Shown here piece by piece: positions 28,399 to 32,239 of a stretch of 39,334 bases of DNA. How positions within the stretch are numbered: the first letter of the stretch is position 1; each line of letters opens with the position of its first letter. The stretch is from a virus. A program made the translations under genes and the position numbers. Under the pieces are notes generated by a model. That model made no database searches. It was not told the origin of the DNA and saw only the letters and a program-made list of their open reading frames with translations. The stretch lies in the IMG/VR virus record IMGVR_UViG_3300019886_000143, positions 1-39,334 of that record, one strand, 5' to 3'.

Positions 28399-28889
28399 CA
28401 GTCCTCCTTCGGGGCGTCGGGGTCGAACGTGTAGCCATCGCCCGGCGGCGGTTCGGTCGTCGTCTTCGTGTCGGGCGGCGCCGGTGCGAAAGCCGGCTGG
28501 TTCATCTGCGGACGCTTCGGCGCGATGCGGATCGCGTCGGTCTCCTGCTGCTCGCCCGTCTTGCGATCCTTGAACCGCGTGCGGACCACGACGAGCTCGA
28601 CCGGGCCGCGCCACTGCTCGATGACGCCCGTGCCGGTGATCGTCTGCATCGCCTTGCAGTTGGTCGCGTTGAGCGCGAGCACCTTCGGCAGCGCCTTGCC
28701 GCTCCGACCCTTGAACGCGATCCACGGCATGTCCTTCTTCTTGTCGCCGTCGGACACGCCGATCACGCCGCTGTCGACGATCTCCATCACGACCGACGTG
28801 CGGCCGTTGAGGTCCTCGGCGAACAGCAGGTTCTCGTTCATCCGGCGGTGCACCTCGCGCCAGTGCGTCTGCGTCTTCGCCGCGGTCAC
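28398..28889 (-). CDS. Conserved phage protein next to exonuclease, possible DNA-binding partner
   Basis: A 163-residue protein; GTG 28889 is chosen because it overlaps the upstream stop by GTGA (GTG 28922 is the longest option). The core (RTSVVMEIVDSGVIGV, then PWIAFKGRSGKALPKVLALN, then NCKAMQTITGTGVIEQWRG) recalls a small family found beside exonucleases in phages, whose role I do not know for certain. The C-terminus is Pro/Asp-rich, like acidic tails of single-strand binding proteins. An annealing or SSB-like role is inference. Confidence 0.5.
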   Translation of the reverse strand: MTAAKTQTHWREVHRRMNENLLFAEDLNGRTSVVMEIVDSGVIGVSDGDKKKDMPWIAFKGRSGKALPKVLALNATNCKAMQTITGTGVIEQWRGPVELVVVRTRFKDRKTGEQQETDAIRIAPKRPQMNQPAFAPAPPDTKTTTEPPPGDGYTFDPDAPKED

Positions 28890-29587
28890 TTGGACACCGC
28901 CCAGTCCTTGGGCCTCGGACACTCCGGCCAGCTTTCCGAATCAGCCTGGAGGCACCGCAGGATACTCAGTCGATGGATGTCCTCGGGAGCCTTCGAGGGT
29001 TTGAACACCCGATGATCTTTCTTAGGGCCGTCGGACGCGAGCTCGTCGAGGTGTCGCGTTCCCGACGTGCGCACGACGGTGCACGCGCCGATCAACTCGT
29101 ACTCGTCGCCGGCGATCCGCTTCAGCCACCCGACTTTGGTGACCTTGTAGTAGTAGCGGCCGGGCATCTGGATGATTTTCAGTCCTTCTTTCACGTCGAG
29201 TTCTCCGATCAAGATTGCGAGCAGGTTGTGAGCTTTCAGACGGGCGTCGGCGTCGGCGTCGGCGGCGGCGGCGTCGTCGGCGTCGGCGTCGGCGTCGGCG
29301 GCGGCGTCGTCGGCGTCGGCGGCGTCGGCGTCGTCGGCGTCGGCGTCGGCGGCGTCGGCGTCGTCGGCGTCGGCGTCGTCGGCGACGGCGTCGTCGGCGT
29401 CGGCGGCGGCGGCGTCGTCGGCGTCGGCGGCGGATGACCGCCTATCAAAAATCCAGTGGGCCACGCCGAGCCTCGTCGGGTTTTCGCCGTTCGATAAACG
29501 GAAGTCCTCCAACACCGCTCGGGCATCCGGATCGCTCCGAAGATCGAGAAGCTGTTGCGGAGGCTCTAGGGCTCCGCGACCGATCAC
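28886..29587 (-). CDS. Protein with long Ala/Asp low-complexity linker
   Basis: A 233-residue protein from GTG 29587. Residues 1-53 are mixed, residues ~54-115 consist of Ala and Asp with a single Val, and residues ~116-233 form a folded-looking domain (LLAILIGELDVKEGLKIIQ, GRYYYKVTKVGWLKRI). The linker is encoded by a GCC/GAC trinucleotide array. The acidic stretch may be a spacer or a DNA-mimicking segment; no family is recognised. Confidence 0.55.
   Translation of the reverse strand: MIGRGALEPPQQLLDLRSDPDARAVLEDFRLSNGENPTRLGVAHWIFDRRSSAADADDAAAADADDAVADDADADDADAADADADDADAADADDAAADADADADDAAAADADADARLKAHNLLAILIGELDVKEGLKIIQMPGRYYYKVTKVGWLKRIAGDEYELIGACTVVRTSGTRHLDELASDGPKKDHRVFKPSKAPEDIHRLSILRCLQADSESWPECPRPKDWAVSK
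29243..29434 (-). repeat. GNC trinucleotide array coding for Ala/Asp tract
   Basis: About 190 bases built almost only of GCC and GAC codons (GGC and GTC on the plus strand), with longer units visible, such as ADADDADAAD occurring twice in tandem. All three minus-strand readings stay open through it (one gives Thr/Pro repeats). Such arrays are prone to length change by slippage or recombination. Confidence 0.85.
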
Positions 29588-30860: not shown

Positions 30861-31054
30861 GAGCGAACCTCGATCGTTCCGATCACGACCACCGTCACGC
30901 AGTGGAACTGGTTGTCGCTCGGCTGCATCGTGCGGATCTCCTGCACGACGAGCGACGGCTGGTCGCGCATCTAGACCGTGACCGCCTCGCCGAGCACGTC
31001 GCGATCGCGGTGCATCGTCGCGGAGAAGATCTTGACGATCGGGACGCGCTTCAC
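30857..31054 (-). pseudogene. Small FSAT...FHC protein interrupted by an in-frame TAG
   Basis: Reading from GTG 31054 gives KRVPIVKIFSATMHRDRD and ...GEAVTV, a TAG at 30973-30971, then in the same frame ATG and MRDQPSLVVQEIRTMQPSDN, QFHCVTVVVIG, up to TGA. Together the two halves look like one 65-residue protein of a family I recall from Myxococcota (KVFSAT..RDRE.LGE.VTEW...SSD..FHC.T), with the TAG in the place of a conserved Trp (TGG). It is coupled on both sides by GTGA, so the frame is intact apart from the stop. Two short peptides by reinitiation at the adjacent ATG are also possible. Confidence 0.55.
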
Positions 31055-31239
31055 TTGTCACCGCCGACGCGCGGTTGCGGAACGCCCGTCGCATCCGTCT
31101 CGCGGATGATCGGAATCAGCTGGCGTCGGCGCGGCTCGCGCTCGGCGTCCCGGTTGGCGTCGCGATCAACCTTCTCGTTGATGCGGCGCGATTCGTCGTA
31201 ATAGAGGTGGTTTCCGTTCTCGTCCTGAGTCGTGAGCAT
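31051..31239 (-). CDS. First gene of the leftward early operon; small Arg-rich protein
   Basis: A 62-residue, highly charged protein (SRRINEKVDRDANRDAEREP, then RRRQLIPIIRE). The ATG lies 3 bases from a perfect copy of the operator, so it should be the first gene under repressor control. No ribosome site is obvious, and the leader must be very short. The Arg-rich part could bind RNA, and its place matches that of antitermination genes in lambdoid phages, but no homology is seen. Confidence 0.55.
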   Translation of the reverse strand: MLTTQDENGNHLYYDESRRINEKVDRDANRDAEREPRRRQLIPIIRETDATGVPQPRVGGDK

Positions 31240-31242
31240 CCA

Positions 31243-31300
31243 GTATCATTACCTGATACGTATGACACTCGTCCAGTCTCTTTGTATCAGTTCGTGCGAC
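31243..31300 (-). promoter_or_regulatory. Left operator region (two sites)
   Basis: Perfect site GTATCA-ttacc-TGATAC at 31243-31259 and a second site with one degenerate half, GTATCA-gttcg-TGCGAC, at 31284-31300. Both have the 5-base spacer and are about 41 bases apart centre to centre, near four helical turns. They sit directly before the first gene of the leftward early operon. A clean promoter was not identified. Confidence 0.65.
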
Positions 31301-31320: not shown

Positions 31321-31503
31321 CTACGCGTGGTAGCGCTTGCGCGGTCGACCTCGAAACATCAGCTGCCAATCATAGCGGGCGATGATCTGCTGCGCCTCGA
31401 TGAGATCGCGGAGCCCGCTCTGCACCTCCTCGAACTTCGCCTCGTCGAGTTCGCGAAGCGCCGCGCCTAACGCCGCCCACTGAACGCCGGAATCGTCTTC
31501 CAT
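31321..31503 (-). CDS. HTH-less paralogue of the repressor tail
   Basis: A 60-residue protein whose residues 7-38 (WAALGAALRELDEAKFEEVQ) match residues 91-122 of the adjacent repressor (WAELGAKLRELDAARFAEML): I count 17 identities in 32 positions. It lacks the helix-turn-helix half. The GGAGG before it directly abuts the ATG, so translation may be weak. It is probably co-transcribed with the repressor. If the shared part is the oligomerisation domain, this protein could form mixed inactive complexes and tune repression. Confidence 0.6.
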   Translation of the reverse strand: MEDDSGVQWAALGAALRELDEAKFEEVQSGLRDLIEAQQIIARYDWQLMFRGRPRKRYHA

Positions 31504-31533: not shown

Positions 31534-31959
31534 TTAGCGCGCGCGGTCCGGATTGGGCCGTAAGATCATGGCAAATGCGTTCTTCTCCTGAATCTTCGCA
31601 TCTACCAATAACCGCACGCCGGTGAGCATCTCGGCGAAACGAGCTGCGTCGAGCTCTCGCAGCTTGGCTCCAAGCTCGGCCCATTCGGCGAGCGGTGATT
31701 CCGCATTCGAGCCGACGAGTGGGCGCCGGCTCTTCGCTTCGATCCTCACTAACTCGTCCTCGACACTGCGCAGCGATCCGATGCTGGCCTTCCCGGCCTT
31801 CAGACGGAACGCGGTCGCTCGTTCGATGCCGGCCTTCTTACAAAGCTCGACCCACTCTTGTCCGATGGCGTTCGCGCGCGCGACAACCTCGGCGACCTGC
31901 GCGGCCGTCGCGTGATTCTTCGGCACCGCGACGCCAGGGATCTCGCGTGGCTTCTCCAT
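31534..31959 (-). CDS. XRE-like phage repressor
   Basis: A 141-residue protein from ATG 31959 (AGGGAA about 6 bases before); a longer start at 32016 would read through an operator and is less likely. Residues ~33-72 form a helix-turn-helix (QEWVELCKKAGIERATAFRL) followed by a helical C-terminal part with WAELGAKLRELDAARFAEML, likely for dimerisation. There is no LexA-like peptidase domain, so RecA-dependent self-cleavage is not expected. It lies between two operator clusters, like cI in lambda. Confidence 0.7.
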   Translation of the reverse strand: MEKPREIPGVAVPKNHATAAQVAEVVARANAIGQEWVELCKKAGIERATAFRLKAGKASIGSLRSVEDELVRIEAKSRRPLVGSNAESPLAEWAELGAKLRELDAARFAEMLTGVRLLVDAKIQEKNAFAMILRPNPDRAR

Positions 31960-31987: not shown

Positions 31988-32036
31988 GTATCACTTCTGA
32001 GACCACCATCTTGCACTCGGTATCAGGGTCTGATAC
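31988..32036 (+). promoter_or_regulatory. Right operator/divergent promoter region
   Basis: Perfect site GTATCA-gggtc-TGATAC at 32020-32036 and a degenerate GTATCA-cttc-TGAGAC at 31988-32003. They lie between the repressor start and the Cro-like gene, so both promoters would be covered. TTGCAC (32011-32016) and GATACT (32032-32037) might be a weak rightward promoter with the -10 inside the operator; this is tentative. Confidence 0.65.
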
Positions 32037-32044
32037 TTGAGTGG

Positions 32045-32239
32045 ATGATGTCTACAGGAAACCGCATCCAGGCTATCCGCGAGAAGCGGGGATGGAGCCG
32101 GGCTGACCTGGCGAAGAAGCTCGGTTGCACGCGGATGACCGTATGGCGTCTCGAAACAGGCGAGACGAGCCTACCTGCAGACGAGCTGCCTCGGGTCGCT
32201 CGTGTGCTCAAGGCCAAAGTGACCGAGCTGATCGCGTGA
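32045..32239 (+). CDS. Cro/CI-type helix-turn-helix regulator
   Basis: A 64-residue protein from ATG 32045 (ATG 32048 also possible). It is a full HTH_3 domain: IQAIREKRGWSRADLAKKLG, CTRMTVWRLETGETSLP, and VARVLKAKVTELI. The size and the divergent place next to a repressor fit a Cro-like protein that shuts repressor synthesis or early genes. The start lies 8 bases after the right operator. Confidence 0.8.
   Translation: MMSTGNRIQAIREKRGWSRADLAKKLGCTRMTVWRLETGETSLPADELPRVARVLKAKVTELIA

Follow-up and report, generated by a model that had tools for sequence, protein, structure and literature searches.

In the SinI-SinR pair of Bacillus subtilis, the repressor combines a helix-turn-helix (HTH) with a helical segment for oligomerisation at its C-terminal end, and its neighbour is a 57-residue homologue of that segment lacking the HTH (PMC3163267). 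SinI is homologous to the C-terminal hook of SinR, and the SinR-SinI heterodimer is inactive, its DNA binding being abolished (PMC3163267). TrlR, CerN and FleT are likewise regulator copies in which the DNA-binding domain is missing, and their target is the full-length protein (PMC11655674). Among phages, lambda expresses rexA and rexB from the promoter that serves its repressor, and RexA tilts the switch in favour of lysis (PMC11077077). In the CI-Mor switches of the lactococcal phage TP901-1 and the staphylococcal phage phi13, the activity of the repressor is altered by a small phage protein that binds to it (PMC11149083), and phiC31 makes three in-frame repressor proteins with different N-termini (referenced in PMC4557955).

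Here we describe a phage locus with the SinI-type trait, in which a small protein is homologous to the C-terminal segment of the neighbouring repressor and has no HTH. The window, meaning the whole stretch of viral DNA that was analysed, is 39,334 bases long.

The immunity module and its operators

The putative immunity repressor (31534..31959, minus strand; 141 residues) runs from an ATG at 31959 to a stop at 31534; starting instead at a GTG 57 nt upstream of that ATG would lengthen the protein to 160 residues, but this codon abuts the operator. Its N-terminal half is HTH-like, the HTH being visible by eye only (ELCKKAGIERATAFRLKAGK) and unrecognised by Pfam, PHROGs or NCBIfam profiles, and its C-terminal segment, residues 91-132, is predicted to be helical. 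Divergent from it is a gene for a cro-like HTH protein of 63-64 residues (32045..32239, plus strand), matched by Pfam HTH_31 at 4e-13 and HTH_3 at 2e-11. The operator OR, GTATCA-GGGTC-TGATAC (32020..32036), lies between the two genes. Beyond the repressor, OL1, GTATCA-TTACC-TGATAC (31243..31259), is placed 3 bp upstream of the ATG of the first gene of the leftward operon (31051..31239, minus strand; 62 residues), and a weaker, probable site OL2, GTATCA-GTTCG-TGCGAC (31284..31300; two mismatches), is found 41 bp from OL1. OR and OL1, both perfect palindromes, are the only occurrences of GTATCA-N5-TGATAC in the record, and the motif did not occur at all in 200 first-order Markov shuffles.

The operators bracket the repressor and the small gene, as they do cI and rex in lambda, with about 760 bp from OL to OR. 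The divergent genes and the palindromic operator between them thus point to a lambda-like CI/cro immunity module, if the HTH of the repressor is accepted by eye. Repressor binding at OR and OL is putative, being suggested by their position and palindromy. These flanking palindromes, together with the reading frame common to the two genes discussed below, go beyond what the original prediction had described.

A search of the record with the integrases of two relatives, G004 and G018, found no integrase; the record may be a fragment. Both relatives have the same switch layout and carry an integrase, and the window phage may have lost its own.

A separate gene copies the repressor tail

The small gene (31321..31503, minus strand) begins with ATG, encodes 60 residues and lies downstream of the repressor on the same strand, 30 nt behind the repressor stop, where the original prediction had placed it. 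In an ungapped local alignment the small protein and the repressor tail have a BLOSUM62 score of 90; the 17 shared residues claimed for them are confirmed, in 31 columns and not the 32 first given. The maximum among 5000 shuffles was 54 (Gumbel p about 1e-8), and no other unrelated frame of the window scored above 54, apart from an antisense frame of the repressor itself. By tblastn, residues 8-54 match repressor residues 92-137 with 42.6% identity over 47 residues (E 2e-7); the homology thus spans nearly the whole small protein, and the first seven residues are its own. As judged from its sequence, the small protein is paralogous to the C-terminal domain of the repressor and lacks the DNA-binding domain, as had been proposed; its gene lies within the operator-flanked module. 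Pfam, PHROGs and NCBIfam gave no match for it that would point to RexA or RexB.

Single-chain AlphaFold models place helices at residues 9-50 of the small protein and 89-132 of the repressor. The small protein is modelled as a single long helix, not a hairpin, and confidence in the repressor model is low (pLDDT 60). The repressor tail, helical in this low-confidence prediction, amphipathic and common to the G018 repressor, is likely to be an oligomerisation segment.

No terminator-like site is present on the minus strand between repressor and small gene. The ribosome-binding-like sequence GGAGG abuts the ATG of the small gene directly, and this poor spacing suggests that less of the small protein than of the repressor may be produced. 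The protein ends in a basic stretch, FRGRPRKRYHA (31321-31360, minus strand), which resembles an AT-hook core (RGRP); by virtue of this end it may retain some contact with DNA.

Age, selection and probable role of the copy

Is the small gene the debris of a duplication, or has it been maintained? At the DNA level the two copies do not form a simple repeat, with identities of 68, 74 and 35% at the three codon positions. Between them pS is 0.76, which is saturated, against a dN of 0.38, implying that the tail copy is old and has been kept by selection. A neutral simulation of the 31-residue tail segment, with 38 random substitutions in each of 20,000 trials, retained at least 17 of the 31 residues in only 0.01% of copies (p 1e-4) and introduced a stop codon in 58%. 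Of the 19 positions that are hydrophobic in the repressor tail, 15 are still so in the copy, as expected if a packing face has been kept. The small gene is an old copy under purifying selection. A non-functional relic or an untranslated ORF, which the poor spacing of the ribosome-binding site and the absence of the gene from G018 might suggest, is therefore highly improbable, given saturated synonymous divergence with amino acids preserved and no stop.

The repressor and the small ORF share one reading frame, with 152 codons from start to start and an offset of 204 bp between the tail and its copy. The shared frame and the start-to-start distance are consistent with some 204 bp having been duplicated in tandem without loss of frame. 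The same figures would also suit the remnant of a longer repressor that had two C-terminal domains in tandem, or a read-through extension to one, but the gap of 30 nt contains TAA and TAG in frame, and the separate ATG has its own preceding GGAGG; we regard this as the least credible of the explanations considered.

We tentatively favour the reading that the small gene is a selected duplicate of the repressor tail whose product co-assembles with the repressor and lowers its activity, much as SinI does. The small gene would have arisen long ago, when the C-terminal oligomerisation segment was duplicated in tandem and in frame, and selection would have retained it as an accessory of the immunity operon. 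In the lysogen it is probably co-transcribed with the repressor, from the slot between repressor and OL that rex fills in lambda. Having the same helical segment and hydrophobic face, the small protein would most likely co-assemble with the repressor. The mixed complex would be one DNA-binding domain short, so that repressor activity and the cooperativity between OL and OR would be reduced, and the ratio of small protein to repressor would set the lysis-lysogeny balance, as expected of a titrating modulator. Co-assembly is supported by the common strand and frame, the short gap, the uninterrupted minus strand between the genes and the operators flanking the pair. Against it stand the low pLDDT of the repressor model, the single long helix of the small protein, the lack of sequence kinship with SinI and SinR, the ribosome-binding site spacing and the fact that G018 and G004 show the gene not to be a conserved component.

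That mixed oligomers weaken repression is plausible by analogy, and the brake on immunity envisaged by the original prediction is one of several outcomes; the letters alone would allow a tail copy to weaken the repressor, strengthen it or leave it unaffected. We also consider possible, with less confidence than the general reading, a more specific arrangement: encoded in cis by the repressor operon, at a fixed ratio and in the rex slot, a dominant-negative copy of the oligomerisation tail would buffer repressor activity and set the threshold for lysis by stoichiometry.

The paralogy and position that speak for an antagonist would serve equally for a co-assembling modulator that strengthens or reshapes repression, an altered stoichiometry bridging OL and OR over the intervening 760 bp or so, or tuning cooperativity, with no antagonist involved. 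In three phages the OL sites come as a pair, 41-42 bp apart, with OR at a distance, an arrangement suggestive of looping or cooperative binding, and FleT alters the affinity of FleQ for its sites rather than plainly blocking it (PMC11655674). Proteins without a DNA-binding domain more usually titrate, however, and we think such a strengthening or reshaping role unlikely.

Related phages and the slot between repressor and OL

The first of the two relatives, G004 (IMGVR_UViG_3300046517_001909), has a portal protein 65% identical to that of the window phage. Its module comprises a cro-like gene, a divergent gene for a repressor-like protein of 134 residues and then a gene for a 52-residue protein, with three WTCGG-N5-CCGAW operator sites and an OL1-OL2 spacing of 41 bp. 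G018 (IMGVR_UViG_3300046533_000621; portal 39% identical) encodes a cro-like protein with 43% identity to that of the window over 47 residues and a repressor colinear with the window repressor (p 0.002), the two having EWAE.G in common in the tail; its operators are CTACA-N5-TGTAG, OL1 and OL2 are 42 bp apart, and it has no gene between repressor and OL. In all three phages, beyond the repressor as seen from OR, a second group of operators precedes the leftward early operon, and in each OL1 is within a few bases of the first leftward gene's start codon. Because their operator sequences differ, the three should be heteroimmune. Two further relatives by portal gene, G006 and G008, gave no HTH_3 match in records that are both incomplete.

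The 52-residue protein of G004 resembles the window's small protein by eye (W..L...LD...Y), but the likeness was not upheld (p 0.79), nor was this protein significantly similar to the tail of its own repressor (p 0.52). The slot between repressor and OL thus holds a tail copy in the window phage, a dissimilar 52-residue gene in G004 and no gene in G018, implying that the conserved module carries the tail copy as an accessory and not as a conserved component. Looking for the small gene in relatives that have the repressor, as the original prediction had suggested, gives a mixed result: the slot is occupied in G004, by a gene whose product bears no detectable likeness to a repressor tail, and is empty in G018.

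This variability would also suit an accessory gene that serves the lysogen in a way of its own, for instance by superinfection exclusion or through another partner, built from a recruited helical domain that no longer binds the repressor. The same slot in lambda is occupied by rexA and rexB, transcribed with cI (PMC11077077), and the basic tail FRGRPRKR would be in keeping with a separate role. The repressor tail has nevertheless been kept along nearly the full length of the small protein, hydrophobic face included, and we judge an independent function somewhat unlikely.

Among the sequences compared, the tail copy appears in one phage only. Pattern scans of a viral contig collection with the repressor, the small protein or their alignment found no relatives, and neither did scans of a genome contig collection with the pair or the portal protein; the neighbouring DnaB-like helicase, used as a scan query, also found none. 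The matches from tblastn against phages and plasmids were at chance level, and sequence searches of the PDB returned nothing meaningful. With no close relative in the collections searched, persistence of the pair across phages has not been seen.

A close relative's terminase (L003:3079-5646) has an intein-like in-frame insertion, from CFVAGTLVRTDRGELPIETIRVGDLVWTR at its start to VEHEYFANGILVGN at its end, which the terminase of the window does not have. In the product of an early gene of the window (28886-29587, minus strand), the N-terminal half is of Ala/Asp low complexity and varies in length, and a C-terminal segment of about 110 residues is conserved; homologues occur in L020, L032 and the phage-like contig L031. 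The last of these also contains (L031:1049-9000) a tandem-expanded gene family of about 25 consecutive small ORFs on one strand, of 65-140 residues, nearly all of which share a TCVRC-like cysteine motif close to the end.

Comparison with known switches

How far do the described systems account for this locus? The lambda immunity region has the same order, OL - accessory gene - repressor - OR - cro, but the rex genes are not copies of cI, and the repressor here has no recognisable lambda CI-type C-terminal domain. The gene for Mor is divergent, and Mor is not known to be derived from the repressor tail. It contacts the N-terminal domain of CI (PMC11149083), whereas the small protein here copies the tail of its repressor. 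The phiC31 isoforms come from one gene with alternative starts; here there is a separate, duplicated gene. TrlR-TraR, CerN-CerM and FleT-FleQ resemble the present pair in having a regulator copy without the DNA-binding domain (PMC11655674), but they belong to other regulator families, cellular or carried on the Ti plasmid, whereas this is a phage repressor.

A limited search of the open-access literature turned up no phage in whose switch the repressor tail recurs as a separate protein, and so did not contradict the view that this exact layout is undescribed. The principle itself is not new, antagonists made of a regulator's oligomerisation domain being known from bacteria; what the locus may add is a case in a phage switch, with the antagonism putative. 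If the copy does bind the repressor, the slot between repressor and OL would be a variable position for switch modifiers in this phage group and, more generally, tunable switches would be obtainable by phages through partial gene duplication. The repressor and its tail copy form a small two-gene cassette that can be tested.

Finally, the closest parallel remains SinI-SinR, although the likeness is one of design. The Pfam SinI profile PF08671 had no match in G000 or G004 at E 10, and homology to SinI was rejected, hhalign of the tail pair with SinR and SinI aligning five columns with a probability of 0.8%. SinI-SinR is a chromosomal biofilm switch in which sinI is under its own Spo0A control, whereas the small gene here is presumably expressed constitutively with the repressor; the SinR-SinI heterodimer is known (PMC3163267), and its counterpart here is suggested by sequence. 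If that counterpart forms, the pair would be a compact, ratio-set regulator of lysogeny arising from a simple domain duplication, a phage-borne and co-encoded analogue of SinI-SinR.
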